Assembly: GCF_963678975.1 (NCBI RefSeq)
Contig: NC_089272.1
Location: 44,087,391 to 44,151,390, forward strand
Length of the DNA stretch: 64,000 bases
From: Dysidea avara
Lineage: Eukaryota; Porifera; Demospongiae; Dictyoceratida; Dysideidae
Reading direction: 5' to 3'
Both the position numbers and the translations under genes were made by a program. This document shows positions 5,542 to 47,149 of this stretch, piece by piece (position 1 is the stretch's first letter; each line of letters opens with the position of its first letter). The notes below the pieces were generated by a model. The model searched no databases and was not told the DNA's origin. It saw only the letters and a program-made list of their open reading frames with translations.

Positions 5542-20260
<14,719 letters not shown>

Positions 20261-22600: not shown

Positions 22601-22635
22601 CTTCAAACTAGCCTTTAAACAAGTGAGAGAAAGCC

Positions 22636-22674
<39 letters not shown>

Positions 22675-24330: not shown

Positions 24331-24339
24331 TATATTGAC

Positions 24340-25499
24340 ATAACTTGCATATTTGCAGGAAATAAATAAGCCTAGAAAGAAATGGAACCAACAAAAGCCA
24401 TGAGCAGATTGCGGATCATTTATCTACTATCTGATTCCCCCACCACTATTTAGTGAGAACATATTTGTGATGCATAGATTTTTAACTTTCCTTGTTTATA
24501 TAGGTTGAAGACTCCACAAAATTGACATCGTGCACAGAGAGTGCAGGTCAACGTAATACAGACTATATACATATTGCTTGTTTCACATGAATTGTTGTGA
24601 TAAGTTGTCATTGTATTATGTCAATATTAATCGACTGTGGATAGTTATAAGCTGTGCCTAGAGTCACAGCAGTCATGTGAATAAAATAAAACTTGGGAAA
24701 ATGCATAGGTCTCTGAGGGTGCTCAAACCCAATACTTCAGATGATGACCATGTAAGAGCAGAGGTGGGACATTATGAGCAAGTGATGACCATGTATAAGC
24801 AAGTGATGACCATGTATAAGCAGAGGTGGGACATTATTGCTACTGGTGATGTATGTCCATCCCCTGGACTATACACAAGTTGAACTGGATCAATAAAAAC
24901 AGCTAAAAATTAAAAGTGGATTGTTTTTCTCGAGGGAGTTAACATTTCAGTCAACCAGATTAGTGGTGACAACAAAGGTGTCATCAACAGACACATGTAG
25001 TTTTGCTCTGTTACAAGTTTGGGAAAAGGCTGTTATGGACACTGCATTTTATGGCTTCCCCATAAGAAATGTATGGTGAAAATTTTGATTGGCCATAACT
25101 ATTGTGTCAGACATTTGAACTAATATTTTTAATTAGTGGGTTAACCTGTGCTACAAATGAGCCAAATTTCAAGGTTGTGTGTAATTGCATTCATGAGTTA
25201 TTAAAATAATATTTTTGAGGATCCAGCTCAATGCATACATACTATAGACTACTCAGTGGGATTTCTGTTGTCTTTCACAACCAGAATTACATCCAAAAAA
25301 TCCATGCACTCAAATAGCTACATAAAACCTGTTTACGTTATATTTGAGGCTGTCCAGTCCAGTCATGGATTTTTTTCCCTTTCTGCACCTTTCCCTGCAA
25401 GCTGTAGGACCAGGAGTCTTACAGATCTTCAGCACTTGTGTTGTAAAGCCTTAATATAAATAAATATTTAGTCTCTGCAGCTTCAGAAGGTGATGTATA
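24340..25499. other. Intergenic, no gene supported
   Basis: It contains a small local repeat (24745-24835, 'gtgatgaccatgtataagca' units). A 68-codon frame at 24677-24883 has no convincing family match. Nothing else is seen. Confidence 0.4.
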
Positions 25500-25830
25500 T
25501 TATACTGCTAGCACTAATACTCTGCTAACATTATGGTTACTACGTACAGTTACAGTAGGTATACTGGCATGGTGTGTACATGACATAGAATAGTAACAAC
25601 AGAAGATCATTATGATAACACAGTTCTGTATCTATGTTAGACAATAACTGGTGTGCACATCTGTGGCTAGTATGGTTACTACACAGAACAATTATAATAA
25701 TACTGGTATCCATGTGCATGACATAGCTAGTGTGGTAACTAAGTAGGACTATATAGACTATCCTGCTTGTGACATAGTATGGTAACTACATAAGACCATA
25801 CTGGTATGTTACGTGGCAAAGTACGTATGG
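25500..25830. repeat. Degenerate tandem repeat, 60-90-bp unit
   Basis: Words such as 'tatggttactac', 'actggtat', 'catgtgcatgacatag' and 'tggtaactaa' recur in order four times with heavy divergence. It borders the large satellite and may be an older array beside it. Confidence 0.4.
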
Positions 25831-27695
25831 TACAACATGCATATCACACTAGTTGACATTATATTAGTCAACATTGGTTGACATCATATGAGTCAACATT
25901 AGTTGACATCAAATGAGTCAACATTGGTTGACATAATATGAGTCAACATTGGTTGATATATCACACTGGTTGACATGAGTCAACATCATATCACACTGGT
26001 TGACACAAGTCAACATCATAATACTGGTTGATATGAGTCGCACAACATCATATAGCAACATCATATAGCTGACATGAGTCAACATAAAATCACACTGGTT
26101 GATATGAGTCATGATCATACAACATCATATCACACTGGTTGACCTGAGTCATACAACATCAAATCACACAGGTTGATATGAGTTGATATGAGTCACTCTA
26201 CATAAGATTGCACTGGCATCATATCACACTGGTTGATAGTGTCATACAACATCATATAATTATCACATTGGTTGATATGAGTCACTTAACATCATGTTGT
26301 GTGACTCATATCAACCAATGTTATATGACTCGGGTCAACCAGTGTGATAATATGATGTTGACTCAGGTCAACTATATAGTGCGATATGATGTTGTGTGAC
26401 TCATATCAACCAGTGTGATAATTATGATGTTGATCATATCACACTGGTTGACATGAGTCATACAACATCATATCAAACTGGTTGATATGAGTCACAGAAC
26501 ATCATGTTGTGTGACTCATATCAACCAGTGTGATATGACTCAGGTCAACCAGCATGATAATTTCTAATGTTGACTCAGGTCAACTGGTGTGATATGATGT
26601 TGTGTGACTCATGTCAACCAATGTGATAATTATGATGTTGACCCAGGTCAACCACTGTAATATAATGTGGACTCATGACAATGTGTGATATGATGCTGAC
26701 TCGTGTCAATCATATTACACTGCTTGACATGAGTCACACAACATCATATCACACTGGTTGATATGATCATGAGTCACTCAACACCATATCACACTGGTTG
26801 ATATGAGTCACACAACATCATATCACACTGGTTGATATGAGTCACTCAACACCATATCACACTGGTTGATATGAGTCACACAACATCATATCACACTGGT
26901 TGATATGAGTCACACAACATCATATCACACTGGTTGATATGAGTCACTCAACACCATATCACACTGGTTGATATGAGTCACACAACATCATATCACACTG
27001 GTTGATATGAGTCATGATCATACAACATCATATCACACTAGTTGACCTGAGTGCATCATATTATCACACTGGTTGACCTGAGTAATACAACATCAAATCA
27101 CACTGGTTGATAAGAGTCACTCTACATAAGATCGCACTGGTTGATATGGCATCCTATCACACTGGTTGATATGTGTCATACAACATCATGATATTATCAC
27201 ACTGGTTGATATGAGTCACTTAACATCATGTTGTGTGACTCATATCAACCAGTGTTATATGACTCGGGTCAACCAGTGTGATCATATTATGATGTTGACT
27301 CAGGTCAACTGGTGTGATATGATGTTGTGTGACTCATGTCAACCAGTGTGATAATATGATGTTGACTCAGGTCAACCACTGTAATATAATTTTGACTCAT
27401 GTCAATGTGTGATATGATGTTGACTCATGTCTCATGTCTCGTGTCAATCATATCACACTGGTTGATATGAGTCACTCAACATTATAATCACACCGGTTGA
27501 TATGAGTCACTCAACATCATATCACACCGGTTGATATCAGTCACACAACATCATATCACACTGGTTAACATGAGTCAACATCATATCACACTGGTTAACA
27601 TGAGTCAACATCATATCACACTGGTTGATATGAGTCACAGAACATCATATCACACTGGTTGACATGAGTCATACAACATCATATCACACTGGTTG

Positions 27696-27803
27696 TTATT
27701 GTTGTTATTATTGTTATTATCTACTTTACCAGTTAGGCACTGGAGGGTGTACACAGAAGGCAGAGCCTGTTCGAGGTGTTTACCCATAGCCTAGGAGCCT
27801 AAG
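27696..27803 (-). mobile_element. Truncated SINE/LINE-like insertion in the satellite
   Basis: A (TTATTG)n-like tract is followed by 'ccagttaggcactgg', 'acacagaaggcagagcctgt' and 'taggagcctaag'. The same block is at 36131-36260, where it extends further. In minus orientation the microsatellite would be a 3' tail. Satellite sequence resumes cleanly on both sides with a short GTTG overlap. Confidence 0.6.
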
Positions 27804-29775
27804 TTGATATGAGTCACAGAACATCATATCACACCGGTTGATATGAGTCACTCAACATCATATCACACTGATTGACATGAGTCATACAACATCATATCAC
27901 ACTGGTTGATATGAGTCACTCAATATCTGGTTGACATGAGTCACTTAACATCATGTTATGTGACTCATATCAACCACTGTGATATGACTCAGGTCAACTA
28001 TCTATAGTGCGATATTATGACGTTGAGTGACTCATGTCAAGCAGTGTGATATGTTGTCAACATCATATCACACTGGTTGACATGAGTCAAACAACATCAT
28101 AATTATCCCATTGTTTGATATGGGTCACTCAACATCATGTTGATATATAATAGTCATACAACATCATAAATATCACACTGGTTGATATGAGCTGTACAAC
28201 ATCATAATACACTGGTTGACCTGAATCATACAACATCATATCATACTGATTGATATGAGTCATACATCATATCACACATCATATCCCACTGGTTGACATG
28301 AGTCATACAACATCATATCACACTGGTTGATATGAGCCGTACAACATCATAGTACACTGGTTGACCTGAGTCACACAACATCATATCATACTGGTTGACA
28401 TGAGTCATACAACATCATATCATACTGATTGACATGAGTCATACATCACATCACACTGGTTGATATGTGTCATACAACATCATATCACACTGGTTGATAT
28501 GATCATGAGTCACTCAACATTATATCACACTGGTTGATACGAGTCACACAACATCATATCACACTGGTTGATATGAGTCATACAACATCATATCATACTG
28601 ATTGACATGAGTCATACATCACATCACACTGGTTGATATGTGTCATACAACATCATATCACACTGGTTGATATGATCATGAGTCACTCAACATCATATCA
28701 CACTGGTTGATACGAGTCACACAACATCATATCACACTGGTTGGCATGATTCATATCACACTGAGTCATACAACATCATATCACACTGGTTGATATGATC
28801 ATGAGTCACTCAACATCATATCACACCGGTTGATATGAGTCACACAACATCATATCACACTGGTTGATATGAGTCACACAACATCATATCCCACTGGTTG
28901 ATATGTGTCATACATCATATCACACTGGTTGACCTAACATCATATCACACTGGTTGACATGAGTCATACATCATATCACACTGGTTGACCAACATCATAT
29001 CACACTGGTTGGCATGAGTCATGCAATATCATATCCCACTGGTTGATATATGTCATACAACATCATATCACACTGGTTGATATGATCATGAGTCACTCAA
29101 CATCATATCACACCGGTTGATATGAGTCACACAACATCATATCACACTGGTTGATATGAGTCATACAATATTATCATACTGGTTGACATGAGTCATACAA
29201 CATCATATCACACTGGTTGATATGAGTCATACAAAATTGTATCACACTGGTTGATATGAGTCATACAATACTATCATACTGGTTGACATGAGTCACTCAA
29301 CATCATATCACACTGGTTGATATGTGTCATACAACATCATATCACACTGGTTGATATGAGTCATACAAAATCATATCAAACTGGTTGACATGAGTCACTT
29401 AACATCATGTTGTGTGACTCATATCAACCACTGTGATATGACTCAGGTCAACTAGCTATAATGCAATATTATTACGTTGTGTGACTCATGTCAAGCAGTG
29501 TGATATGATGTTGTCAACATCGTATCACACTGGTTGACATGAGTCAAACAATGTCATATCACACTGGTTGGCACGAGTCATACAACATCATATCACACTG
29601 GTTGACATGAGTCAAACAACATCATATCACACTGGTTGGCATGAGTCATACAACATCATATCACACTGGTTGACATGAGTCATACAACGTCATATCACAC
29701 TGGTTGGCATGAGTCATACAACATCATATCACAGACATGAGTCATAAAACATATTATCAGACTACAACATCATAT

Positions 29776-30324
29776 CAGCGTTATAAGTGGGTCAGTACTG
29801 TTGACCCGATTGACCCACTAATCTGAATAGTAATTCCCGGATCTGACCCGCATGTGACCCGGTTTAATTAACATAGAGGTGTGCCTCAAGAGCTAGATTA
29901 AAAATTCATAAGTTCTATTGGTTAGCCCTGCACTATAGATAGGATTGTCTGCAAGAAGCAAGTAGCTACATTTTATCAAGTGGGTGTGGCTCCATGTAAG
30001 TCTACATGCAGCTACCTACATTTCATGTAGGAACACGGGTCCGGTGATGCCATGCATGTCCACAGAGAATAGCTGATACAATTCCCATCAGTGGGCGTGG
30101 CTCTATATATCCTGCACAGACAACAAAGCATATTCCTGAATGGTGGGTGTGGCTCCACATAAGATTTTTGAGTGTTTACAACAAGGCTGTATTTCCACCA
30201 ATACAATCGTACTTGTCACACATGAATCTCATCCGGGTCAGACTCAGATATTCAGTGAAGTGGATTGACCCGGACAAAAATTAATGTGCCAAATGACCCA
30301 GATAATCCGGCCCACTTAACACTG
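29776..30324. mobile_element. hAT-type MITE inside the satellite, perfect 8-bp TSD
   Basis: Ends are CAGCGTTATAAGTGGGTC and, inverted, CAGTGTTAAGTGGGCCGGAT. CATCATAT flanks both sides (29768-29775, 30325-30332) and is itself satellite sequence. The interior holds three spaced 'gtgggtgtggct'-type words (about 29980, 30090, 30144) and 'gacccg' repeats near both ends. It has no coding capacity. Confidence 0.85.
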
Positions 30325-31136
30325 CATCATATCACACTGGTTGACATGAGTCAAACAACATCATATCACACTGGTTGAAATCAATAACATAAGTCAAACA
30401 ACATCATATCACTGGTTGACATGAGTCATACAACATCATTATCACACTGGTTGACACCAATGACATGAGTCAAACATAATGGTTGTCATGATCGAGTCAA
30501 ACAACATCATCATGTCACACTGCAGCTGGTGACTGGCTGTGTGCTTCAACTTCACAGCATCACCATTATAGCAAAAATAATTGAGATATTCATCATCAAT
30601 ATCATCAAGGAACTTTTGTTGATCCCTACTGTTGGATCATCCCTGCTAGCTGACACCCAGATACAGGGGTGACTCACTGTAGGTCGATCTGCGACCGCTG
30701 TCAAAATGTAAATCAAAGGTCAAGGCCACCAAATTCGTACCAAGTCAACGGTCAAGGCTAAGTACTAAAGATCGTCACTGGTCAAATATTGACTTTTTAA
30801 AGGGTGTCAAGACCATAGATTATCGAGAGAATCTATAAGACTTTACCGGACCTAGGTCACAGACCTACCTACAGTGTGTACCTACCGCTTGATCGATTTG
30901 AATTTTGATTTATTTTTTAAAGCTCCTAACAGTCGGAATGGCCGTTCGTCTTCCCTGATTGGAAATGAGATATTCAGTCTATTCTATAATCAGCTATCCC
31001 TTGAGACATTTCTATGTAGAACTGGCTATAATATACTATGTTCTTCGTCAACTATTCGGTCTGGCACCCTCGAGTGATTTCAGCAGTTGCCCAGCACTTT
31101 GCACTGCTGGGCCAGTCTGGCGCGGCCCAGAGAGAA

Positions 31137-31149
31137 TATAAATCACGTG
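31137..31149 (+). promoter_or_regulatory. Candidate TATA box and E-box upstream of the ParB-methyltransferase gene
   Basis: TATAAAT (31137-31143) is directly followed by CACGTG (31144-31149), 92 bases before the start codon at 31241. The preceding 60 bases are locally GC-rich. The spacing fits a core promoter with a short 5' leader. Confidence 0.4.
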
Positions 31150-31240
31150 CTCAAATTAAGCGGGCGCGAATCTGTTCTTGTGCCACGTTGTCACAGGTGT
31201 AATATCAAGAAGCGATCTTAGAGGTGTGTGGACCTCGACC

Positions 31241-34200
31241 ATGCCTCGGGCACAGCTCTGGCACTTTTTGCCAGCTTCGGAAGAACTGAGTGACGGATCC
31301 GGAGTATACGTTGGTTTTGGAAAAAAAGTACATCGTAAATATGGAACTTTGACAAGAGGATCATTGATAAAGAGGGAGAATAGTGACGGCGTAGTTTGTC
31401 TTGTGGTAAGTCTGTCAAAATAGTTGTTGCTCTTTCCTTATTTCAATTCTTAGCCTCAACCTAGTCTCGCGTTACCAGACCGCTATACTTTTCCCACCTA
31501 CACACAAAGAGAAGCAGCGGTCTGGCTACGCGAGCTCTTATCACACCATCTCTGCAACCGTACAAGGCGGCTATCCATACCTTATAGCCAAATATAATGT
31601 TGTTGGTGTTTGTGCACGCCTTCTATTATAACTAGTTACTAGTGATGACATTAATGTGCACTGTTAAACTCATTCTTATTATTGTCTACAGGCTACATTT
31701 AGCAAAGAATCCCAGCCTAGGATGTTGGATATTACAAAGTTCGACTGGACTGTCAATGATTTTTGCAAAATGTTTAAATCTTCTGGATCTGAAGAGCGTT
31801 TTATTCAAATATTCGACGAGGCACTGAAAAGTCAAGAGTCAATTGTGAATGAAGACTCCTCCCTCAGTGGTCCTAGTAACAAACGACAATGCCTGATTGA
31901 AGTTGCTAGCCATCAAGCAAGAGCAAGAGAAGCTGCAGAAAAAGCTGGCCTAAACAAGGAGTTTGAAGACACAGGGATAGATCTGGAGACTTTAACCTAC
32001 CATCAAGGTGATGACTGTATATTGTAATCTATGTGTGTATATAACTTGCATGTTAAATTAGAGAACTGTTGATTGTTGTTGTTAAGTGAAGCTTAAGAAC
32101 AGACTGAGGTGTTGCTTGTCAAAGTGTGGCTTCCTGTGCTTTGCTGGTCATTGATGCATACCTATATAACTCTATCATGCCACACAGTGCAAGTATTGTG
32201 TCACAATCTTTTATTTTTCTGCTCAACCTTTTTATTTTCTGTTCAACCTTTCATCGCCAAGCTATTTCTTGGGCCCTTAATTTTTCAGTCCAAATGAGGT
32301 GTATATCATTATAACTACTAAGTGTGGGGCTATCTGGTTTCTGGAAACCTGACTGTTAACATGGTCCACAGGTACGAACACTTTTTTGTTCTAAAGAATT
32401 TTTTAGTACAAAACTTACTGTTTACTTATAATTAGTTAGCCTACATCTGTCTGGTTGAAAAATTTTCCTGCAATATTAGATTGCTTTTGAATAGCATTAA
32501 ATATAACAAAGGTGGCCGTATATAAAATTAAAAAAATTGCCAATCTTGAACTTTAGTCTGCCTTCCTGCCTGACCACAGTCCCAAGGCTAGAGACCAGTG
32601 CACGGCCACCATTTTATGCCACAATAACAAACTCACCAGTGGGATGTGCCTTTTGGGGTTCCAACGACACATAGGCCCTCTGCGCCTTCTCTTTTCTTTT
32701 ATCTTCAATCAGACTACTTGTCTTCTTCTTAATCCATATTGAGGTGTTAATTTTCCATATCAACACTTTCTTTCAGCAGCATATTTAGGTGCCACAGAAT
32801 TATTTCAAAGCTGCATTTCGAAAGCGCTTTAGTCCCAACGCTGCTATAGAAGAGATGTACTAGCTAGATATCTGCCTGCAACTCCACGATTGGGATCCCG
32901 TTTGCTATAGATTCATGAGCATGCCCATCAAAACAGTGACCAGATCTGCGAAAACAGAACATAATCGCATATTTTTCGAATTCCTGTTTATTAAATATTT
33001 ATATTCCACTTAGCCAAGTGTACCCACTGGCAAAGTTTCAGCTCCATATGCCTATAACTTTGGAAGTTACAGCCCTACAAAGTAGCAACAACAGAAAAAT
33101 CGATTTGTACAGTAACTATAGGGAAATAAATTACAGGCGCTTACAGAAACAGTTGTAACTTACCAATGGATTGAGGTATGGAGCTGCAATTTACACCATC
33201 GTGTTCGCCATGAATAGGGGAATCAATTACTGGGTAAGTTTGTCCTTTACTCACCCTTCCTCACTGCATACAAAGGTGAAATTTGTGATAAAAATCGATC
33301 GCGTACGATCGCTTTGACGTGATGTAAACAAACGCTCGTTGGGTCTACTACAACGAAACAAAGATTTTACTACTCCTCTTGAGCAGGCAAATAAGATGAT
33401 ATCCAGGTTTTTATTTTTAGTCCCTTCCTTCACTAAGAAAGAGACGTTCAAAATTTTTTTTTCAATAATACGCAAGTATTTCACCCAATGTATTCAATGC
33501 TTTATACTGTAAATTTAGGCTTGTGCGATTATGTCCTGTTTTCGCAGATCCAGTCACATATAGCAGCTATTAGCAGCTATCCTGTTTAGCATGCATCATT
33601 CATCTCTTGTTTTACTACTTTTTATTGCATAGATCCCTACTTCATTAATACTGAAACTTTATAAGGTGTTTTAAGGCTACAACTATGGTAGCAAGCTAAA
33701 CTGCGATGGAACTATAGTGACTATACTGCAATCATGCATAGGCAAACACTGACTAATGGCTAAAAGGATGTTTCCATACATTATCTATAGTTTTATAAGG
33801 TATTTTAAGGCTACAACTACAGTAGAAAGTTAAACTGTGATGGCTTAAAAGTGGGTGTGGCACATGAAGATTGATTGCAGAGACAAACATTGATCGAGCA
33901 AGATAAATAAGCAGCTGGAATAAAGATAACATTGTTTATTTGTAATTCTTTCGTAGACTATGAGTGCATACATAGCTTCAAACAATAGTCTGAAGCTTAA
34001 TTAACGACTTATATACTTAACCTTCAAACCCATGAAACATTTGAAGCTTTGTCCAGCCCTATAATGCAAATAGCACCTGACTTGGCTAGCAATATTTGAG
34101 TGTATTTCCAATTACTAATTAACAGTGTTTGTGTAGTGTGAGGCGTGTTATGTGAATAACTACTGTATTTTGAAACATTTTTCTTTTTTTTCTTATGTAG

Positions 34201-37200
34201 CTAAGTATATAACATAAGCTTTATGGCCTTCATGGCGTCCATCCTGGTAGTTGGTCGTCCACTTTCCTTTGCTGCTGCTAAAAGCTTGATAAAATATAAC
34301 AAACACACGTGGATTAGTAACTGAATGGTTATAATGTAGAAACATGGTATTGTACATACGATAATAGTGACCACAAACAGAGCCTGAAATTATGGTCAGA
34401 CATCTGCCCTTTTCTGACCATTTTTGGCTAAAGTCTGAACACTTAGAAAGTTTTTATATAGTACTACTGAGTATGTTCGACCAAATAGCAGGATTTGTCA
34501 GATCATTTTCAAAACATAATTTCAGGCCCTGCACAAAGGTTTGGGTATGGCACATGAAAAAATAAATAAACAAGCCTTCAGATTGACCCAAAATGCTTTC
34601 AGGAAGTTGCTATGGATTTTCTAATCACTGACTGAATAACTGACTGACTGAATAACTGACTGACTGATGCCTTCAGATAAGTGTAACTCAGCAATGACGA
34701 ATGGCTGGATTTCTTTGCCATTTGACATTGCTTTGTCCTGAGAGTGCCTTTTGCATACCGCAGTATGTACAATGCATTCTTCATGAAGTTACCAATTTCT
34801 TTCTTTGTGTCCCATTTATCTTCACTGACATTCCTTATTTTGATGCGGTATGTGTGGGTTCACCAGTACCAAGAACAGACAATAACAGTTTATCCCTGAT
34901 TCAGAAGTGAATTGATACCAAGATGCTGCAGTGAGTATAGGTGAAAAAGTGGAACACTCATATATTGGCTTGGTGGAAGTACAATGCTATAAGGTACCCC
35001 ATTCTGAGCAAGTTGGCTAAGAAATACTCAGCCACCCTAGCTACATCATTTCCATCTGAGAGGGCTTTCAATATTGCAGGTCATGTCTCAAATGTAAAAC
35101 GAGCTTGTCTTCTACCAGCAACCGTAAACTAAGCTACAGTAATTAAAACTTATGGTTATGTTAATGCTTATGAAGTTCTATACCTATATTTATCCCATAT
35201 TCAATACACTACAGTACCTGTTGGCTTGATGTATCCATTGTTTATAAGTTTAGCAGATTGTAACTTTATTTTGTACCACTTGACTCATTGTTACTTGTTG
35301 GTTTTGTAACATTTGACTGGCCTACTTTATTTCACGGACTGAACTCATGTACTAAGCTGGAAACAGCTTTTAAACAATAATCCAGGCATTATCCATCTCT
35401 TGCAACACTGGAGACACCACTATGAAACTATAACTGCTGGTACTGCTCTTCCTTGCAAATCATATGGCACTAGCATGTGCACTAATTAATTAGAATACAC
35501 CTGGATACACATGTACTCACAGTGATAAAGTGTGATACCTTAAGGTGACTAAATTTTGCGATACACTAAATTCAGCAAATTTGTATATTGGCGAAATTAG
35601 CGCATACAAAATTTAGCGATTTTGTGAATTGATTTAATTAAGTTACCATACATTTTGCAGGTTTAGCGTGTACTAAATTTAGCGGAAAAACTTTAGTCAC
35701 TAAAATCGCTAAATTTATTTAGTCACCTTAAGGTAGACGCTATTGGGAGTGTATAAACAGTGGAATGGACTACTGGAATGATGGAATTTTTTTAAAGTTC
35801 AATATGATTTTTTACATCCAAATAAGTACAACTCTTCCCGTTAAGTAAGCAAATAAATAGGATTCTCCTTAAAATTAGCTCTTAGCATACTTCACCTCAC
35901 TGCAGACAAAGTTTACCAATGTAATATACTGTAAAGTCAGTTATGAACATGCACAATAACAGTTTAATGGGAATGCCAAGAAGATTCCTTACCTAACCCT
36001 TGTTCCCCAATGATAAAAAATTAGCTAGCTAGCTGATTACATGTATGCATTAATTGTAAAAGTACATTCACCCTGTATAATGAAGTTCAAGAGCTAATAA
36101 TAAGAGACTTATTATTAACTCTTGGAAGTATTCATTTATTTATTATCAACTATGCCAGTTAGGTACTGTACAAACACAGAAGGCAGAGCCTGTACAACAC
36201 TACGCTAACCTATAGGAGCCTAAGCGAAAATCTTTGGTAAAGTGAAACGGGGTAAGCGTTTACAATGGCCTTTTCCACAGTTATTAAGACAGTTAGTTTC
36301 AGACAAGTAATAAAGTGTTGAGTTATAAGTCATACAAGTGTTGTGGTGAGGAAAAGTATGCTAAATGAGCTGACTTCAGTGGGGAATCCTATTTATTTGC
36401 TTATTCAAGGAGAGGAGTGGTACTTATTTGGATGTAAAAAATGATATTAAACTACAAAAAAAATCCAATCCAGTATTCCACCATTCCAGTAGTCCATTCC
36501 ACTGTTTATACACTCCAGGCTATTGTTGTAGCGTAGATGTTTTCCTTTGTTACTTCAGTACTTAACACTATAGCGTTAGGGCTGTACTGATGAGCCAGTC
36601 TATTTGCATAGCCCGATCACCTCACCTGGTGGTGCCACTTAGCTACCTGCTAAGAATAATTACTGACTCATCCATCTGTAGCACTAGTGCTATGGCAACA
36701 AAGGAAAACGTACACTGCAACAATAGCCTCTGTCACGTACATTATAGTTATATCCCGGTACAAGGGTGATATCATTGTTATTACACGAGTCCGAGGCGGA
36801 GCCGAGGACGAGTGTAATAACAATGATATCATCCGAGTATACGGGATATAACTGTTTTATATCCCAGTGCGCGGGAGTGCGCAGAAGTTTACAGATAGTA
36901 AATTAAGTTCCGGTTTGAGTTCCTGTCACTGTGCTCAAGATTTCGTCTGAATTGTGTGGAGATTCTACTTCGTAGCTACAAGAGAGACCTTACATACTGC
37001 CTACAAACTGTAGTGAAGGGCGGTGTTATGAAGCAGCGGTTCCAGGTACGATTCGCCTTCGTCAGAAATTGGTATGGTGGTGTCGCGTGGTGTGCAAGAG
37101 AAAAATAAAGACCAACAAGTGGCTACCATAGTCCGAGATAGAACGATGAAGCTAGAGGAAGTTAGTTCTTACCATAGTGGCCGTTGAGAGTGATTGCTGG

Positions 37201-40200
37201 AGCGAAAATCGTCACGGACTATTCTTGACATTTGTTAAACTATCACGGTATTGGTAACTTGTAGTGTTATTGTGTAAAGGATTAACAGTTTTCTTGTAAG
37301 ATTTAGCTAGTTTTGAGTGCTGTATTGGTGTGTTTTGTATCAATATTTCCTTATTTGGCTCTTTGTTCCATTGGTAAACAATGCCATTCGCGGTTATTAT
37401 GATGTCACGAAAGAGACTGGGTGGCTCCGCAACAGGGTGATAAGTTAGTTATCACTGGGTGATAACTAATATATCGTACAGTAGCAGCGCCGCTCTGTCT
37501 AGCTGTATGGTAGTTATAACCCAGCGCGGCGCTTTGATACTCCCACGCACTGGGGTTTAAGTTTAGTTATCACTGAGAGTACACGTATATTGTAAAAGTA
37601 TTTTAATTAATTAGTGCATGCGTTAGTGTCATGTAACTTGTAAGGAAGAGCAGTACCAGTAGTTTTAGCTTGATAGTGGTGTCTTCAGTGTTGCAAGAGA
37701 TCGTAAGTACAGTGTGAAAGTATCATGAAGTAGCTATGTACTATTCAGTATCATGGATAGTTATATAGTATAATTTATGATACTAAAATGGCAGTATTAC
37801 TACAGCCTACAGACCACACACCCCTTACGGATAATGCAAAATAACCTCTCTACAAGGAAGCTTACTCACCTAAGATTTTAGTAAAGCTTAGATGAACGCT
37901 GAAACACGCTTAAAGCACTCTAGAATACGATGGGCATTAAACAGAATTTTCTATGATATTAGTTATGTATAGTTAAACCCTACCATGAGTAGGATATCTA
38001 GTTATCAACCTGAGGCCAAGGTGTCGGTAACTAGATATCCTACGAGTGCAGGTGGGATTTAATCAGTTTCTATCCCACACTTTGAAGCAATCAAGTTCAC
38101 AATCAATGTCTCAATAAGGCTAGACAAGCATATCATTGTGTATGGCTTCAAGTTTAGCTGAACTTGTTACCTTGTCCCCAGCTGCCCACAGGCTCGATAA
38201 CATGACCTTTGATTGCGTGGGCGGCTGGAGACAAGACTATAGTTGCACAATGAGTATAGCTTCAATTTTTACAGTTTTATAATGTGTAAGGTTTTGATTA
38301 CACTTCTTTCAATTGAATGTGTTATGCTGTCTTCCATATATGTATGCACTGAGGTTTAACTATCACTCCCTGGGTTTAACTACCATATACTCCCAGTTTT
38401 TTTACTTTGATGTAGGGCTTCAGTGGGATAGAACTGTTTATCCTGACAAACATAACTACAATGTTAAAACTATGCCTCCTATAATCAAATTGTTGTAGGG
38501 ATGCTTATCAAATGAATGGAGTAGTTTAACTTGGGTGACTGTTCACCGACTGCAAGTCATTAGCTGCTGCAATATGCTTGGGAGAGCCGTAGCAAATCAA
38601 CGACTGAAACTGAGATTGCAATGCCTTGAATGTCAATGTGTGCTTTATTGTGTCGATGTGTTCTTTATTGTGTCGATGTGTGCTTTATTGTGTCAATATG
38701 TGCTCTACTGTCCTGCCTTTTATCCTCACTATTATAGCTATAGCCATTATATAGTCAAGCACAATAGGGTTTCCATCTAAGGTTATATTGGATATCAGTT
38801 TCATGATTATACATAGGTTTTGCTGCTATTGATAATGGTGTTTAGATTACTTCTTTGTCTTGTTTCAGGTAATTTTACATTACCAGTTAAGTGCCTGGAA
38901 CCTCCCCCTGAAGAATGGCTGGTAAGAAAATGCTCAAAAAACATAGTGGATCAGCTAAAACAAGAAATGGTGGACAACATGTGCACTGATGTACAACCGA
39001 TTTTGTGCATCGTCCAATTGAAGAGGGATGAAACGTTTAATCCTCTTGTGAAAGAAGGATACAAATACAACACAATTGGAGGAAACCATTCACGCCAAGC
39101 CCTCCAAGAGCTTTTGTCTGAAAAACCTGAGCTAAAGTCTTCTAAACAATTTACACATCGAACATGTTCAGTGTATAGCGCAATGGATACAATTCTTGTA
39201 AGGAGACTAGCCAACAAACATAACCGAGCTGCAACGCATGTACATGAAATCACCACAATGGATTGGGTAAGGTTCACTTATACTTACAGTAGATATAACA
39301 TTGTAACATGTACAATTAATTTTAGATTTAAGTATTACTTCATGAAAAGGTTGTCATGTACAGGGTGTATTTTAACTCTGTAATAAAATTAAGTTTGATA
39401 GAATAGTGAAGCAATTCAGACTAAAGATATATTGGTGGACCGCTTCAGTGTGCCCATGTCTGAATTATGGGTTACCACTACTATATATCTTTATTTTGCT
39501 ACTTTTACTGTAATTTTGTTTCACTACTTTTGATTTCTGTCACTAGTGCTAGCTAAACTGTAAGGGCAGGGCAGCCGACTAAGGCAAAGTTAATTGGACA
39601 AATTGTTTGTGGTAATGCGCAAACGCAAAAAGCCATAGACTATGCAGAGAATTATCTGTGCTTTAAATCTATTAGCTTGTCACAACTCTAGTTGCTTGCC
39701 ACCACATGATTACTCTTACGCGGAGCACGGGTTACACTGTCTCCTTTCTCGCTAAATAGCTCCAAAATTATACGCCACAGAACATCAAAATTTGGTACAG
39801 ACATCGTGTAAACGTCACTCTGCAATAGTACGCTTTGAATTTTCACGATTCATGCTTGATGGAGTTGTTGGCCAATGTTGTAGTCCGCAGGTGTGTGTTT
39901 TCACTACTTTCCATATTGTTATCAGTAAAGAGTAAGGCGTAGAATTGTTCTACGAGGTGAGAAATGGTTGGGCCCTAGTTTGTGTGCTTTTTTCAATCCA
40001 TTAGAAATTGATTTTATTGACAGTGAAAATTTTTTTTGGTAGAACAGTTGTATTGATATGCGATATGTTGACATATCGTGGCTTGTTAACATGGCTGACA
40101 ATCAAATTATTGTACATTGTGATTAAACTTAATATGTAATGCTTCTCAAAGAAAGAATAGCTCACTTAAAAAATGACATAGACCATTGTTTAGACTCTAC

Positions 40201-43200
40201 TTTGTATTGTGCAATGTATCGCTGTATCGTGATACACCAGAGGCAATATAATATATCCATACATCGTACACACTGTGTGGTTACAACTATAATAGCTACA
40301 GTCAACTATTTTGAAACTGATACAATTGCAATTTGTACAAGTAGAAGGAAAAATTTGGAATTCAAGCTCAGTTAGTGATCATAGAAATAAAAGTAAAGAA
40401 ACAAGGGAAGTCAGATATACTAGTGGACATTAATCTGTAGTTGTTACTGGCCATAACTGAATTGTCCACTACAGTGGACCCTCAGTTATCCGAACACCTT
40501 GATTATCCGAATGCTAAATGTGACTGTTCTGTTCTATTACAGAAAATGACTGTTCTATTAGAGTAGTTGAACGAAGCTCTGTATATAAATCAATGGGCTT
40601 CAGTTATCCGCACATGTTCACTTATCTTTGGCTAACTATAAGAACAAAGCTGTTTGGATAACTGAGGATCCACTGTAGTATCATACAGTGTGATAGTAAC
40701 TGCACATTAGGGATCATGGAGGTTTGGGCTTTTCTGACAAAAAAATATTACCCCAAAATCAGCCTCACAATGCCTTCATGATGTCTTAGTAGTATTGTTG
40801 ATGTACAAATAAGCCCAAAAGTGTCTTCAGAATGGCCAAAATCACTTTAGATAAGCTGCTACAGAATTTTAAATTTCTTGCCTGATGCCTTCAGACAAGT
40901 GTAACTTGAAAACTGATAAGGCTACAGGGGTTGACTTTTTACTGTTCGACGTTGCTTCAGCTGGACATGTGCCTTTTGGAATGCCACAGTACGTACAGTG
41001 CATTCTTCATGGACTTACGAGTATCCTCTTTTGTGTCCCATTTATCTTGCTCACAGCAAAAGGTGTCGATTCGTGCTAGTGAATTAAGTGTCTGTGATAT
41101 TCATTTCTGATTTGTACAGCAATATAATAGTCCTTGTTAGCTTGATTTATTGATGAATAAGGGTGTGGTAAATATGGATACCAGATGTCAGTTTAGTGGT
41201 TGTAGTGTTTCCCATTCATGTAGAAGAATGAATGCCATGTAGATATTCATTCCAGACCGATTCATCTGCTTGATGCCTTGTATTGTGACTTCCTGTGTTG
41301 GTCTGGTGTGTCTTTTTGTTTGATGTCTGAACTACATGTAATTAGTGGCCAGACTGGGTGGCCAAAGGAGGCACTATATACCCAGAAATTTTTGAGGAGA
41401 TGAAACTTTCATGAGTAATGACAGCTTCATGAAATGTAACCATGAGATATTTGAGATGCACAGCTATTACCTTAGCAAACTAAGGAATGCTTTCTAGACT
41501 TTTGTGAATCAAAAATGCAAAAATTATATTTTACATGCTTTCGCAAAAGTTTCATCCCTCAAAAATTGGCTGTAGAGTAGTGATGTGCGATATATCGGAA
41601 AAATATCGATTTTGCGATAATTTTGTCGATATTGTTATCGTATCGATTTTCGATACTGCTTTAGCAGATTAAAGGTAATACTTTGCGATGATTATCGAAA
41701 TATCGAAGAATATTTCGATAAATCTACAGCATTTAGTATGTGATTGCGCAATCACGCTAGAAATGAAGGTTGGTTCTGTACTATCTAGCCACTTTAAAAA
41801 TTTGTCTACCAGTTTCCTAGGCTTATTATTAGTTTAATGCAATAGTTAGTGTGTAAATTTTATTTCAAGCATATTTATAAATATCGGACGCCCACGCAAT
41901 TACACCACCCACACAATTAAAAATTATCGAAAATCGTATCGAAATTTCGATATTTACCCCAATATCGTATCGATAACATATAGAAATAAAAATCCTGATA
42001 TCGCACACCACTACTGTACAGTACCTTGCCATGTTACAACCTTTTCATATTTGATTTGTAACACTAGTAACAGCCTTTTGTCTACCCGCACACCATACTA
42101 CAAATAGAATTGTATGTCAACTGATGATGCAGGTAACTATTTTTACTTGAATAATCTATTTCTTCTGTATGTAGATACAGCAATGCAGAAAGCTTCTCTA
42201 CGAGCTATCTAATACTTCACTGGATCATGATCCTCCTTCAAAGAAGCCTGAAAAGTGGAGAAAAGCTTGTTCAACGGTTCTGGTCATAGATGTATGTATA
42301 TGTCTTTTTGTAACCATTATTGGTGTGGTTTATGAGCTAAGACAATATATGTTGCTAGGCAATTTTCACGATAGTAAATACTATATATGCATGTTAGTTA
42401 TGTTCCATGAATTGACACTTGCATTTTCTTTACTCTTAAGTTGCAAAGAAGACAGATACTACAGATACTGTTTGATAGTTGGTTAATAGCACAAGTTTTA
42501 TCACTGTTTAGCCTCCTAATGTCTTACAGTATTTAGCAGACAATGCATGCATTGTAAACACACCTATTTCTTTGCTTGTAGTACAAATTGCAGGTAGTTT
42601 GACAATGGCTCTATTTAAGGTGACATGGGATTTACAGTGTAATTGTATGCATTCCTGCTTACTACATGTATTACGTATGTAGGAAACTGCGTATTGGGCA
42701 AAAATATGGAAAGTGACGCAGATCATTATTATGCTTTACTTAAAGTAGTCATGATACAGACAGTTTGACGTCTCCTGTTTAGACACTATTTTACTGTGAT
42801 GGCCCCTAGCTACTGCTTGTGGATCATGCTTCTAAAATTGCATGTAAGTGGTATACACCAAGAGTTCGTACTACATGTATGTAAGGGAAGGGTTTATAAT
42901 GTTATGACCATACTTAAAAGATATTTGCGTGGTCTTGTTATAGATTGAAAAGCTTGATGAGAGGCTAATATATTTTTTATCAGCTCTACCTAATGAAACT
43001 TTTGGACATGTTAGGAAAATTTTTGACCTTCATGCCCAGGGAGAACTGAAAACAATCGCAAGATCAAAGAAAGGAGCTAAAGGTCAAGTACCAGATTTGC
43101 CTGGTTCGTCTTTTAAACCATTCCGTGGTTTAGATCAAGACACCTTATGCCAATTGATGGCAGACATTAGCTCAAAAAAGCTGACATTTAGAGAAGCAGT

Positions 43201-46200
43201 CAGCAAGTGTAGTGACATCAAGGCTATTCAAAAAGTTAGAAATTGCTTTATGAAGGTCACTGGCTGTAAAACGTGGGAACAAGCTGAAGAAAAGTATCCA
43301 TGTTATACATCATCGGAAAAGCTGGAGCCATTTAAAAGTTTAAATTGTTCAGGGGTTGAGACTCCAGCACAGCTGCTGCATTTTTGTAAGAGAGCAATGG
43401 AATTCCCTTGTCCTGTTCAAGACTCTGGAGTGGTTGTTGATCACGAAAATGTGTTCCTGATACAGAATTCTAACAGCAGCGGACTGTTATGGAAGACAAA
43501 ATTATGCGATGCTACCCCTGGTGCCTTGAGGAATTGTTTTGCGCAAGTAGGAAAGAGCGGATTCCCAGGATTTTCCCTATCTTTTTTGGATTTTACTGGG
43601 ATGGAGCTAGATATGGTATTGTGAACATAAGGCTATAATAGCATGTAATTATGTGACCGGATCTGAGATTTACCTGTTTGCACAAACCTACTTTACAGTA
43701 GAATTAAACATAATGGGGCGAGATATGTCAAAAATCCATTTCAGAGTGCTTGCTTCAATATTGTAATGGAAAAATGGCATTGTTGTACACTGTATGTATT
43801 TCCCATAGCAAAAAAAAACCTTTGTTTCATGTCGATTCTTTAGAAAAGACAGAAGATACGAGCTCTTCTTAGTTTTTTGCCAGTCGTAGGAAGACAAAAA
43901 TTGTCTAGTAATAGCTTTGGTAGTGACTAGTGAGTGTGAAAGCTAAATCAATACATTCATTTAATACTGCATGCTCTGATGCTTTAAGTTATGGCCATTT
44001 TTATTGAGCATCTCTGGTTTATTTTCGTAATATCACTTTACACATCGATTTTGTTACTGTTACCACTTTTGTAGTATTGCAACTTCTAAACTAAAACCTT
44101 TATTAACTATTGTTTTGGTAATGTACAGTAGTAAAAGAATTGTAATAAAATTGAATTCAAAAACGTGAGATGCTTACAGATCCGATCACATATAAATGTG
44201 ATAACAATTGTCATAAACTTTTCTTCTTTAGGTACAACAAGAAGCAAAGCAGGCATTACGTGTGCTACGGGCATTAAACTATAATGATGGACTGCAGCAT
44301 TTTTACGTCATACTGATGTGTGACTTGTCAGTTATTAGTTACCTTGCTGATAGCCTGCATGGCTCATATGACAAGCTGGATTATGGAGCATGTGGATTAT
44401 CAGAAGAGAATGGTACGTATGTACTTATAGATTGACGATGTGGAAGTATATTGATGTACCATAGTCCAGTCACAGATCTTTTGTAAACCACGCCCACTTA
44501 TTGAGATTACAAGCAGATGTTAAGCCATGCCCATTTATCAGTAGTTGCATGTATTACAATCTGTATAGCATGAACCCAAGTTGCTTACTGTTTTGCGAGC
44601 TTACATGAAACCACGGCCCACTTATTGTATAAGTCATATCATAGCCTAGTCTTGCAGCAGGTCATTACTATGTGAGCCATGCCCACTTTGTTATCAGGAA
44701 TGTGTAATTGAGTGTGTACTCAGTGCAGCGTTCTGAAATTTGTAGGTATGCAGAGAGCCACACCCACTATAGTTGCTCGATTGCTCAACATGCTGATCCA
44801 GCACCTGAAACGTTGCCTCAAAACATATTTCTGAACACACACCCCAGTTTTCACTAGTCCGGGTCAGCAGTTGATGCATTTCACACTAAACATTGTATCT
44901 ATTTATATCTGACTATAAAAATGAATGAAATCTACTTTAATGCAATTGTTAACATTTCCTATTCTAATTATCTTGCACTTGTTCAACCTTTTAAAGTTTG
45001 CGTGTATATTTATAATATAATTTATGTATGTATTATAGTATTTGTATGTGAATCTAGAACATGGTGCAGGAAGTAAGCAGCATACAACCATTGGATTGTT
45101 GGTGACTACCGTAGGATCACCATCTTTTCAAGCCAACAAACCAAATTTCTTTACCCACAAGAATGACGCTTACGTCACTGATTCAGCCACTGGTAGAAAA
45201 GTCTGTGATAATCAAAAGCCAGTATCATTTTATAATGAGATGATGGAGCTTCTTTCTGCTCAAGATGACTGGATTTTGAGTGCACCAACAGGAATTGGTA
45301 TGTATGCATATGAGAAAATGTATGTAGTATAGAACACCACATATTTTAATTGAATTAAAATTGCCATAAAATTGATTATTGTGTCATGCACACACCAACA
45401 GCTGGCCTTCGAGTGGGCATATGTCTGATGGTTTGGGAAAAACCATGTGTGCTTGTCTGTCCACGCATGTACGTGACCAACTTCAAGGTACGGAATTATA
45501 GTTTACAATCTTATATACCATTTTTTGTTGCATGTAGGGTGTGTGGTTGCATTTAGGGGTGTGGCCTCTGCTTAATGGAGCTTGCTTATGGGATCATTGC
45601 GATGCAACAGATGTTTTAATAACTATAAGAAACAATATAGTAGGCCTTGTAAGCTTCCAGAAATATGGGATGTGTTCCCTATGAATATGTATGAAAATGA
45701 ACACCAGCCTTGAGACTTTGTCTAGGAATGGTCTGGATAGACATCCTTGAAAGTTTTGATTGTGGATCAGCAGCTGACTCTATGTCTGGTTATGATAGAC
45801 AAATCTTAAAAATATCGAATTTTGATTACACAAATTTAATGTTTATTCAATGCTGTTGAATCATATATGGCATAATCACAAAATTTTCTAAAGGCCTTGA
45901 AGGGTAAGCTTTCTTGTAGAGTTGTTAGTTGGTGTCGTTTTGTGTAGAATGGCAATTTTGTGTTATCAATAATGTATGTGTGGTCTGTATATATTCGTAA
46001 AATAAGGACTGAAATTTCAGTTCTTAAAAATATAAGGGCTGAAGATTCAAAAGGAGTTATAAAAAAGGAGCTGAAATTTCAGTTCATGACTGAATTTTTA
46101 GTTCTTAAAGTAAGAACTGAAAGTTCAGTTCTTAAAAAAAGGAGCTGAAATTTCAGTTGAGGACTGAATTTTCAGTTCTTAAAAATAAGGAATGAAATAA

Positions 46201-46536
46201 AAAAATGACTGAAATTTCAATTCTTAAAAAAAAAAGCAATTTTCACTTCTTACAAATTGAAATTTCAGCTCTTCAAATAAGGACTGAAATTTCAGTTCAT
46301 AGAATTTTCAGTAACAGTTCCATAGTCATAATATGTTTTTAGGTGAACATTTGTTTCCACATGTAGGAAGCGCTATGATAGCTGGAATAACTGGTAGGAG
46401 AAATGTGTGTACAGTGGAACACAGTGATGTTAATTTTATACAATCAAAAATTAGAGTAGTTAAAGAAGTGTCAAAGCCTGTTCAGACTACAGATGAGACT
46501 GAGACTATTGCAGAATATGACAATGGCACTTCATAA
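31241..46536 (+). CDS. ParB-like domain fused to N4/N6-type DNA methyltransferase-like domain, 760 aa, 8 exons
   Basis: Exons: 31241-31405, 31692-32007, 38869-39266, 42175-42291, 42944-43615, 44232-44412, 45058-45297 and 46343-46536. All introns are GT-AG and every phase fits, giving 760 residues. Residues 199-293 resemble the ParB N-terminal/sulfiredoxin-like fold: PILCIVQL, then IGGNHSRQAL (230-239), then LANKHNRAATHVHEIT. Residues 333-540 are an unassigned helical region (FRGLDQDTLCQLMADISSKK). The C-terminus has the order of a beta-class amino-methyltransferase: YVILMCDLSV (582-590) where DPPY would sit, NQKP (668-671), DWILSAPTGIGEH (SAM motif I) and GRRNVCTVE ending in E722. ParB-methylase fusions are known in bacteria and phages; an intron-rich animal copy suggests old transfer or domestication. 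The likely site of action is nuclear DNA. The altered DPPY leaves activity uncertain. Exon 7's acceptor (CTAG at 45057) was chosen because it keeps phase. Confidence 0.75.
31462..31537. mobile_element. Tiny TIR element, TAGTCTCGCG ends
   Basis: Left TAGTCTCGCGTTACCAGACC and right GGTCTGGCTACGCGAGCTCT form a 76-bp inverted-repeat element in intron 1 of the ParB-methyltransferase gene. Related ends occur at 20376 and 20480. Confidence 0.6.
32555..32930 (-). repeat. Dispersed repeat R3, copy 2 (inverted)
   Basis: Reverse complement of 15595-15985 at moderate identity. It sits in intron 2, immediately left of the TIR element at 32935. Confidence 0.65.
32935..33560. mobile_element. ~0.63-kb TIR element, TATGTGAC family
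   Basis: Left AGTGACCAGATCTGCGAAAA and, inverted from the right, TATGTGACTGGATCTGCGAA; both continue through 'acag.acataatcgca'. The interior has 'caaagtttcagctccat' and 'tttggaagttacagc', the block shared with 8061-8680 and 22802-23434. It is non-coding. Confidence 0.75.
33590..33650. mobile_element. R2-family fragment
   Basis: 'catcattcatctcttgtttt' followed by 'actactttttattgcataga' and 'tccctacttcat' matches the right arm of the R2 foldback at 14789-14975. Confidence 0.65.
33655..33840. repeat. Two-copy diverged local duplication
   Basis: 'ttataaggtgttttaaggct' with 'acaactatggtag.aagctaaactgcgatgg' recurs ~130 bp later as 'ttataaggtattttaaggct' and following. It is intronic with no coding meaning. 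Confidence 0.5.
34378..34531. mobile_element. Short TIR element, CAGRGCCTGAAATTATG ends
   Basis: The left end CAGAGCCTGAAATTATGG and the right end CATAATTTCAGGCCCTG are inverted copies. The ends are hAT-like in style. A clean 8-bp duplication is not seen; flanks share only CACAAA with an offset. Confidence 0.55.
34600..34860 (+). repeat. Dispersed repeat R1
   Basis: Carries repeated 'actgactgactga', then 'gatgccttcagataagtgta', 'gtgccttttgcataccgcag', 'tatgtacaatgcattcttca' and 'tttgtgtcccatttatcttc'. It is in intron 2 of the ParB-methyltransferase gene. Confidence 0.7.
34941..35132 (+). pseudogene. hAT transposase C-terminal dimerisation fragment
   Basis: The frame encodes WWKYNAIRYPILSKLAKKYS, then ATSFPSERAFNIAGHVSNVK and RACLLPATVN, the classic hAT C-terminal dimerisation segment (WWK..RYP.LS.LA, then PSER.FS.AG). 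Only this last segment survives, and no catalytic core is recognisable nearby. It shows that autonomous hAT elements were once present and could have mobilised the many hAT-type MITEs here. It lies inside intron 2 of the ParB-methyltransferase gene. Confidence 0.85.
35538..35733. mobile_element. TA-flanked MITE, CCTTAAGGTGACTAAATTT ends
   Basis: CCTTAAGGTGACTAAATTT at the left and the inverted copy ending GTCACCTTAAGG at the right, with TA on both sides. The interior is made of 'aaatttagcg' words. TA targeting suggests a Tc1/mariner-type mover (inference). Confidence 0.7.
35747..36516. mobile_element. Long-TIR element (~130-bp arms) carrying an inner SINE-like insertion
   Basis: The left arm starts 'gagtgtataaacagtggaat' and continues through 'ttacatccaaataagtac' to 'aaataaataggattctcc'. 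The right arm (36381-36516) is its inverted copy ending 'attccactgtttatacactc'. The SINE-like block at 36131-36260 sits between the arms. Confidence 0.7.
36131..36260 (-). mobile_element. SINE/LINE-like repeat, second copy
   Basis: 'tatgccagttaggtactgta', 'aacacagaaggcagagcctg' and 'ataggagcctaagcg' match 27696-27803. This copy is longer on the right, so the other is 5' truncated in minus orientation. Confidence 0.6.
36518..36728. mobile_element. Foldback element abutting the long-TIR element
   Basis: Left 'ggctattgttgtagcgtaga' and 'tgttttcctttgtt', right 'aacaaaggaaaacg' and 'ctgcaacaatagcc', form ~34-bp arms around a ~145-bp interior. Confidence 0.65.
36748..36852. mobile_element. Strong hairpin with GC-rich tip
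   Basis: 'gatatcattgttattacac' and its inverted copy 'gtgtaataacaatgatatc' surround GAGTCCGAGGCGGAGCCGAG. Outer arms are 'gttatatcccg' and 'cgggatataac'. Confidence 0.75.
36857..37562. mobile_element. ~0.7-kb TIR element, CCCAGTGCGYGGGAGT ends
   Basis: Left 'tatcccagtgcgcgggagtg' and right 'actcccacgcactgggg' are inverted. The interior has a second palindrome 'gataagttagttatcactgg' near the right end. There is no transposase frame. Confidence 0.6.
37973..38062. mobile_element. Hairpin element
   Basis: 'gtaggatatctagttatc' and 'gtaactagatatcctac' form the stem. The outer ends 'ttaaaccctac' and 'gtgggatttaa' are also complementary. Confidence 0.6.
38636..38715. repeat. Minisatellite, 23-bp unit, about 4 copies
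   Basis: 'tgtgctttattgtgtcgatg' and close variants in tandem, just upstream of exon 3 of the ParB-methyltransferase gene. Confidence 0.75.
40472..40675. mobile_element. Tigger/pogo-like MITE
   Basis: CAGTGGACCCTCAGTTATCC at the left and the inverted GGATAACTGAGGATCCACTG at the right, flanked by TA. It contains two copies of 'gactgttctattaGAG'-type words, linking the dispersed 20-bp motif to this element class. Confidence 0.75.
40700..41075 (+). repeat. Dispersed repeat R1, long copy
   Basis: The longest well-aligned copy with 47150-47520. Shared order: 'ggatcatg.aggtttgggc', 'aatcagcctcacaatgcctt', 'cccaaaagtgtcttc', 'gatgccttcagacaagtgta', 'tttggaatgccacagtacgt' and 'tttgtgtcccatttatctt'. 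Confidence 0.7.
41578..42013. mobile_element. hAT-type MITE, TAGTGRTGTGCGATAT ends
   Basis: TAGTGATGTGCGATATATCG at the left and, inverted, TAGTGGTGTGCGATATCAGG. Flanks CTGTAGAG and CTGTACAG are an 8-bp duplication with one mismatch. The interior is built from 'tatcgataa'-type palindromic words. Confidence 0.75.
43650..44192. mobile_element. ~0.54-kb TIR element, TATGTGAC family
   Basis: TATGTGACCGGATCTGAGAT at the left and, inverted from the right, TATGTGATCGGATCTGTAAG. It fills most of the intron between exons 5 and 6 of the ParB-methyltransferase gene. Confidence 0.7.
44470..44780. repeat. Degenerate repeats with CCACGCCCACTTATT words
   Basis: 'accacgcccacttattgag', 'gccatgcccatttatcag', 'cacggcccacttattgta', 'gccatgcccactttgttat' and 'gccacacccactatag' recur at 50-90-bp spacing. 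The motif resembles CACCC/GC-box sites bound by KLF/Sp proteins. It lies in an intron. Confidence 0.5.
45402..45555 (+). other. Candidate alternative last exon of the ParB-methyltransferase gene
   Basis: After an AG at 45400-45401 the sequence is open in the phase required by exon 7. It encodes AGLRVGICLMVWEKPCVLVC then PRMYVTNFK, and runs to a stop near 45555 if not spliced at 45488. It would replace exon 8 with another segment that also resembles the region after SAM motif I. A GT at 45488-45489 (GTACGG) could be a donor, but then no phase-0 downstream exon is visible. It may be a chance frame. Confidence 0.3.
45995..46320. repeat. Palindromic-core minisatellite (CTGAAATTTCAG)
   Basis: About a dozen imperfect units carrying CTGAAATTTCAGTTCTTAAA or variants, just upstream of the last exon (46343). 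The core is self-complementary and closely resembles that of the 5994-6427 array. Confidence 0.8.
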
Positions 46537-46538
46537 TC

Positions 46539-46884
46539 AGTGTTTTAAAACTTTTTTTTGTGTGTATATTAGGCTGCTTATAAATTTGCACTCCTTTTGT
46601 TAATGCTGTAGTATTGTATACACTTTTGTGTGCTGTATGAAATGCTGTTTGTTTTGAATACTGAAATTTGTATGCGAAATTTAGAGACCTGCAAAATATT
46701 AGAAAATAATGCAGTGTTTTTAACACTTTTTTTTTGTGTGTGTATTAGGCTGCTTATAAATTTGCACTCCTTTTGTTAATGCTGTAGTATTGTATACACT
46801 TTTGTGTGCTGTATGAAATGCTGTCTGTTTTGAATACTGAAATTTGTATGCGAAATTTAGAGACCTGCAAAATATTAGAAAATA
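46539..46884. repeat. 173-bp tandem duplication in the 3' flank
   Basis: The block beginning 'cagtgttttaaaac' at 46539 is repeated at 46712 with very few differences, including 'attaggctgcttataaattt' and 'gcgaaatttagagacctgc'. It starts three bases after the stop codon of the ParB-methyltransferase gene, so it probably duplicates its 3' UTR. Confidence 0.9.
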
Positions 46885-47149
46885 AGGCATTATTTTCAGC
46901 CAATATAATAGAAAGTAGTAATTGCCAATATATAATAGATCTTGTTATAATATAATTGTATTATCTATGATTTAATAGATATAACACAGGATATACAGTA
47001 TGCACATATGCATGATTCCAAGAGATTTCCATCTTAGAAATCAAAGGGGATTTTCCTTAAACCTTTGAAACCTCCTCCCTATGTTGTTTAAATATGTTAT
47101 CTCTACAAATATAAGCTAGATAATTTTGTTAGTAGAAGCAGTAGTATCA

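Follow-up and report, generated by a model that had tools for sequence, protein, structure and literature searches.

The eight-exon gene with ParB-like and DNA methyltransferase-like motifs in the 64,000-nucleotide stretch of Dysidea avara DNA analyzed here (the window) lies inside a DNA transposon of 41,662 bp (window 5285–46946). The unit has terminal inverted repeats (TIRs), is probably a cut-and-paste transposon, and has moved recently. Two genes were recognized in it, in divergent orientation: the eight-exon gene (gene 2), and, on the minus strand, a multi-exon gene within 5545–20413 that contains the domain DUF7869 (gene 1). We consider it quite probable that gene 2 is an accessory gene of this giant two-gene transposon, that it descended from a ParB–methyltransferase fusion and has a non-catalytic role, and that the DUF7869 gene provides the transposase.

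The extent of the transposon was determined by comparing the window with its two closest full copies in the same genome, C7 and C6 (named after their contigs). Homology to both ceased at two identical points beyond which the flanks differed, and the unit therefore reaches far outside the interval to which the sequence-only reading was confined. The introns and repeats are carried along in the copies. The window and C7 copies were 99.9% identical over their longest alignment (37,486 columns), which indicates recent movement. The TIRs are imperfect, with 29 of 40 bases matching; when 100,000 pairs of window positions were picked at random, none matched as well. Ends and target-site duplications (TSDs) were read for the closest copies only (window, C7, and C6), and all three copies with both ends read are flanked by a 4-bp TSD: ATAA in the window, TAAT in C7, and ACTA in C6. 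In C6, ACTA was read first in the right flank and predicted for the left flank, which was then read and proved to be ACTA; a chance match of four flanking bases is expected at ∼0.005 per copy. The right end is common to four copies, each with a different flank. A 4-bp TSD is a feature of the Sola1 superfamily, with which the window transposon agrees in this respect. An assignment to piggyBac, considered for the TTAA in one flank of C7, was dropped, since different 4-bp sequences are duplicated at the window copy and at C6. The features of the window are summarized in the table below.

Features of the transposon and its two genes in the 64-kb window (+, forward strand; −, reverse strand; ".", no strand)
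Feature	Position	Strand	Basis or remark
Left target-site duplication ATAA	5281..5284	.	Identical 4 bases at 46947–46950
Whole transposon	5285..46946	.	Homology to C7 and C6 copies ceases at two identical points; flanks differ
Left TIR, begins AACAATCTCTATTTTATATTGG	5285..5324	+	29/40 bases match right end
Gene 1, probable C-terminal stretch	5545..5928	−	Open frame; 100% (C7) and 99.5% (C6) identity; no family match of its own
Left subterminal repeats, 11 CTGAAANTTCAG copies on + strand	6018..6398	.	Tandem array of ∼34 bp
Gene 1, probable coding stretch	7587..7940	−	Open frame; 100% identity in C7 and C6; no family match over cut-off
Gene 1, exon with domain end, ends approximate	10232..10564	−	PF25273, E 8.5e-13
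Gene 1, exon with VGHTHEDVDQ, ends approximate	12614..12793	−	PF25273, E 2.7e-15
Gene 1, probable short exon with ENKNKFVYAFMSYLVEINIF (ENKN), approximate	13820..13895	−	Motif scan
Gene 1, exon with LIIDGMDQ and QMDN	16188..16513	−	PF25273, E 2.8e-19 on 16102–16590; splice sites
Gene 1, Cys-containing exon	17498..17622	−	Phase fits next exon
Gene 1, probable N-terminal exon, ends approximate	18980..20260	−	Long open frame; 100% (C7) and 99.8% (C6) identity; no family match over cut-off
Repeats of ∼34 bp containing GTTGAY-N4-GTCA, in the interval that separates gene 1 from gene 2	25852..30476	.	
Gene 2, exon 1	31241..31405	+	
Gene 2, exon 2	31692..32007	+	
Gene 2, exon 3: ParB-like segment, IGGNHSRQAL and LANKHN	38869..39266	+	
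Gene 2, exon 4	42175..42291	+	
Gene 2, exon 5: linker and start of methyltransferase-like domain; LDFTG at expected DPPY	42944..43615	+	
Gene 2, exon 6	44232..44412	+	
Gene 2, exon 7: motif X NQKP and DWILSAPTGI	45070..45297	+	
Right subterminal repeats, 5 CTGAAANTTCAG copies on + strand	46009..46295	.	
Gene 2, exon 8: completes motif I, GSAMIAGITGRRNVCTVE, to stop	46367..46536	+	Corrected acceptor
Right TIR, reverse complement begins AACAAGATCTATTATATATTGG	46907..46946	−	
Right target-site duplication ATAA	46947..46950	.	

Some further structures were observed in and around the copies. GCAG is repeated in tandem about 60 times at window 6587–6828, and a 176-bp stretch of the 3' flank of gene 2 is directly duplicated (2.1 copies) at 46533–46896, just inside the right end. 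C7 carries an insertion of ∼2.8 kb at the position matching window 9479. For a fourth copy, C8, the 60 kb of surrounding sequence that was compared contained just the right part of the unit. A further left end was found on C1 at ∼42.02 Mb (C1:42019364 and 42024076) together with a DUF7869 exon interrupted by TGA; the matches listed included no right end to go with it, and this is probably an old remnant.

The assembly is that of an animal, because Wnt-family matches are present (27, with none in 14 prokaryote controls), and both the animal origin and the spliced eukaryotic nature that had been proposed for gene 2 were borne out. Its eight exons with matching phases were likewise confirmed: all seven introns are GT–AG, the phases fit, the single open frame has no internal stop, and the structure is conserved in C7 and C6. 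The predicted length of 760 residues was revised. It fits an in-frame acceptor 12 bases upstream of 45070; with the acceptor at 45070 and the last acceptor as originally placed, the protein has 756 aa. The last acceptor is better placed 24 bases downstream, at the junction of ccacatgtag and GAAGCG, where the frame is kept and the protein has 748 aa. At this place the corrected protein reads DWILSAPTGIGSAMIAGITGRRNVCTVE, without the eight residues that the earlier model inserts in motif I. Both versions were compared with a profile of nine phage ParB–methyltransferases, taken from a sample of 14 phage loci. The corrected single sequence scored 23.4 at the block of motifs X and I (motif X–I), a score reached by 3 of 300 residue shuffles, whereas the earlier version scored 17.3 and aligned outside this block (43 of 300 shuffles as high). 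We therefore prefer the acceptor at 46367, as only the corrected version aligns at motif X–I of the phage methyltransferases. A possible extra exon at 45402–45487 is open, yet its phase does not match the next acceptor, and it was rejected.

The frame is open in three of the four near-identical copies: the exons of C7 are 100% identical to those of the window, those of C6 differ by 4 bases, both encode 748 aa, and the gene in C8 is broken. Within near-identical pairs there were too few changes to show selection either way. Between subfamilies, exons 3 and 5 had saturated or nearly saturated synonymous sites and dN of 0.2–0.6, and the rows compared were free of stops (the exon-5 set excludes the stop-bearing row L036). 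Gene 2 is thus a real gene under long purifying selection and not a chance reading. An open stretch in intron 2 (34941–35132) seems similar to the last part of a hAT transposase and may belong to a nested transposon.

In the methyltransferase-like part, a block of motif X followed by motif I is supported. The window protein and two paralogue rows, aligned by hhalign to the profile of nine phage proteins, scored 32.4 (probability 25%), and none of 500 column shuffles scored as high. Motif I is degenerate: exon 7 was aligned for three sequences, and these read APTGIG or SPTGIG where DPFxGxG is expected. Motif IV, (D/N/S)PP(Y/F/W), is absent: none of the six exon-5 sequences has PP at the place that we tentatively assign to it, where the expected DPPY reads LDFTG, FDLEG, LDLCG, or LDY with one invariant Asp. 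The N6_N4_Mtase profile (PF01555), which matched in 11 of 14 control genomes, had no match in the 756-aa protein, its pieces, or the six-frame genome. The 756-aa protein had no match at E 10 in Pfam, NCBIfam, PHROGs, or PDB sequences, and its pieces matched Pfam only at chance level, the best at E 0.12 and well short of the cut-offs. A tblastn search of phages and plasmids with the gene 2 protein gave no match, and in scans of viral and prokaryotic contigs, whose reach is fairly close relatives only, short patterns matched with no relative confirmed by tblastn.

The ParB-like part was examined in eight exon-3 rows, several of them near-identical. GGNHSRQALQELL is invariant among them and resembles the ParB P motif. 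All eight read GGNHSRQA, with Ser at the fourth position of GxxR and Arg one place later, so that the P-motif arginine is absent from its fourth position in 8/8 rows. PMC12704722 reports that NTP binding is lost when the conserved Arg of the P motif is changed. The ParB_N profile (PF02195) matched in 10 of 14 control genomes and had no match in the gene 2 protein, its pieces, or the whole genome in six frames. A phage ParB profile aligned to four paralogue rows outside the motif (score 16.9, P 0.089), and with the single sequence 95 of 300 shuffles scored at least as high. AlphaFold2 modeling of exon 3 from the eight rows gave no support for a ParB fold (mean pLDDT 42.8), and the 17 Foldseek matches to this model, none at E 0.001, are uninformative because the model is too poor. 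We describe the exon-3 segment as ParB-like by motif only, because the P-motif Arg is displaced, the profile is without signal, and the pLDDT is low; a ParB domain here is plausible but unproven. The motifs IGGNHSRQAL, LANKHN, NQKP, and GRRNVCTVE are present just as the sequence-only reading had described them. Its order of a ParB domain followed by a beta-class methyltransferase holds at the C-terminal motif X–I; ParB is unsupported beyond the motif, and DPPY is missing.

The joined exon pieces of the partner gene matched DUF7869 (PF25273) with E 1e-46, scoring 159 bits where the cut-off is 26, and three of its exons pass the Pfam cut-off individually. The gene model is partial, with splice phases that fit between two exons. 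Three acidic motifs, IIDGMDQ, QMDN...ENKN, and GHTHEDVDQ, point to a possible DDE/D enzyme, and, on the basis of these motifs and the structure of the element, the product is probably the transposase. The term DUF7869 was not found in the open-access literature searched.

We also analyzed the distribution of both genes across the assembly (550.8 Mb, 108 contigs). At least 63 exon matches of gene 2 were found, forming 23 clusters and many dispersed subfamilies; this number is a lower bound, as 60 of 127 candidates were scored. The search for DUF7869 gave 78 matches in 30 clusters. Fourteen of the 23 gene 2 clusters had a DUF7869 cluster within 40 kb, and in all 14 the two were head to head; random placement would give ∼0.005 per cluster. 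All three full copies read (window, C7, and C6) carry the DUF7869 gene. The remaining nine gene 2 clusters, which include C8 with only the right part of the unit, had no DUF7869 within 40 kb. Since the pairing includes members only 25–31% identical to the window protein, the partnership of the two genes is old. Conversely, 16 of the 30 DUF7869 clusters had no gene 2 cluster within 40 kb (e.g., C3:39105469, C12:18466146, and C2:52134164), and they may belong to related transposons that lack gene 2.

Two sets of repeats are candidates for protein-binding sites. The CTGAAANTTCAG palindrome occurs 16 times on the plus strand of the window, always in one of the two subterminal zones, and its copies are likely transposase sites. 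The central array is specific to the element: a 21-mer of its ∼34-bp unit has 93 exact matches in the genome, all of them in the window (30), C6 (34), and C7 (29). The array may serve as a promoter, or the ParB-like protein may be seated on it.

In the model that we propose, the product of gene 1 would act as the transposase, recognizing the inverted ends and the subterminal palindromes and inserting the element with a 4-bp stagger. Gene 2 would descend from a ParB–methyltransferase fusion like those of phages and algal transposons, and its product would be a DNA-binding regulator or protector of its own element with a pocket resembling that for SAM, perhaps seated on the central array. In a bolder version, to which we give little credence, the divergent promoter has a parS-like array, and a ParB-type clamp joined to a catalytically lost methyltransferase binds there to insulate the element, to partition it, or to silence and license it. 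If this is true, a prokaryotic-style segregation or control module would be at work inside an animal transposon lineage.

A non-catalytic, regulatory or protective role is favored over DNA methylation because DPPY and the P motif are degenerate in every aligned member while the frame is strongly conserved. The alternative of an active methyltransferase that puts 4mC or 6mA on the DNA of the transposon, as proposed for an element of the alga Ectocarpus, is in line with the retained motif X–I block and the selection on the frame, and the authors of PMC12477816 suggested such self-modification for their protein. However, it must be reconciled with the replacement of DPPY in all six exon-5 sequences and with a motif I that departs from DPFxGxG in all three sequences aligned there, and we regard it as possible but not likely. 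It is also rather unlikely that gene 2 is unrelated to ParB–methyltransferases and that its motifs are chance resemblances in some other transposon protein. The lack of any database family match and the failure of the ParB segment in the shuffle test would be expected in that case, but the shuffle results at motif X–I (0 of 500 by column, 3 of 300 for the single sequence) would not, nor would a domain order and opposite-strand position like those reported for the Ectocarpus transposon in PMC12477816.

The remaining alternatives concern the unit as a whole. The sequence-only reading took gene 2 for an old acquisition that now serves the host as a domesticated DNA-marking or defense gene. A spliced gene whose conserved frame is under purifying selection agrees with this, and the nine clusters without DUF7869 within 40 kb could include domesticated ones. 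Nevertheless, the unit that encloses the window copy has TIRs and TSDs and was mobile recently, the DUF7869 gene is also present in all three full copies read, and many dispersed subfamilies are as expected of a transposon gene; a host role is therefore improbable, and for the window copy it gives way to the accessory content of a multi-copy DNA transposon. The large size of the unit might recall an integrated virus or a Polinton-like element, but gene 2 has no match to phage families (PHROGs), the viral-contig scans, within their reach of fairly close relatives, confirmed no relative of either gene, and an element with only two recognized genes, short imperfect TIRs, and a 4-bp TSD makes this very improbable. 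Segmental duplication would also yield large near-identical blocks with introns, but an identical right end in four different flanks, the TIRs, and matching 4-bp duplications in 3/3 copies leave it hardly any probability.

An accessory gene of a transposon remains our preferred reading of gene 2. ParB–methyltransferase genes in transposons, which had been reported from algae, would then occur in an animal genome as well, in near-identical, open, and apparently recently moved copies. The question of why such distant eukaryotes have transposons that retain a protein of this make-up can be tested in this system. In addition, the uncharacterized Pfam family DUF7869 gains a probable role as a transposase, with defined ends, target-site length, and candidate binding sites. 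The case also calls for caution: a spliced animal gene whose motifs resemble those of phages may be carried by a transposon and need not have been acquired by the host.

The closest known system is Sola1-1_Ec32 of the brown alga Ectocarpus, described in PMC12477816 as a 21.5-kb DNA transposon in which a ParB–methyltransferase gene lies opposite the transposase. Like the element described here, it is a giant DNA transposon that carries a ParB-like and N4/N6 DNA methyltransferase gene on the strand opposite the transposase, and the position of gene 2 opposite its DUF7869 partner matches this arrangement. The present element differs in its animal host, its size (41.7 kb vs. 21.5 kb), the length of the protein (748 aa vs. 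1104 aa), the DUF7869 partner, the lack of DPPY, and the eight exons. Other similar proteins exist by the account of PMC12477816 (its references 50 and 51). The ParB–N6_N4_Mtase fusions of phages, as portrayed in PMC12704722, have the identical domain order, and their motif X–I block aligns with that of gene 2. They are intronless and typically have DPPY, a motif I of GGSG or AGSG, and GHGR, whereas gene 2 is spliced and has LDFTG, APTGIG, and GGNHSR as the counterparts. The fungal DNA transposons with TET/JBP genes (PMC12730594) resemble the element in that a gene for a DNA-modification enzyme lies beside the transposase, although the enzyme is a dioxygenase and not a methyltransferase-like protein. 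A ParB–methyltransferase gene in a transposon is therefore already known as a kind from the published Ectocarpus precedent. No such gene of an animal was among the matches listed in the open-access literature, which is not proof of absence from print. As far as we have seen, the element appears to be new in comparison with these systems in that its host is an animal, its partner gene contains DUF7869, its catalytic motifs are degenerate, and it has the array and near-identical open copies.
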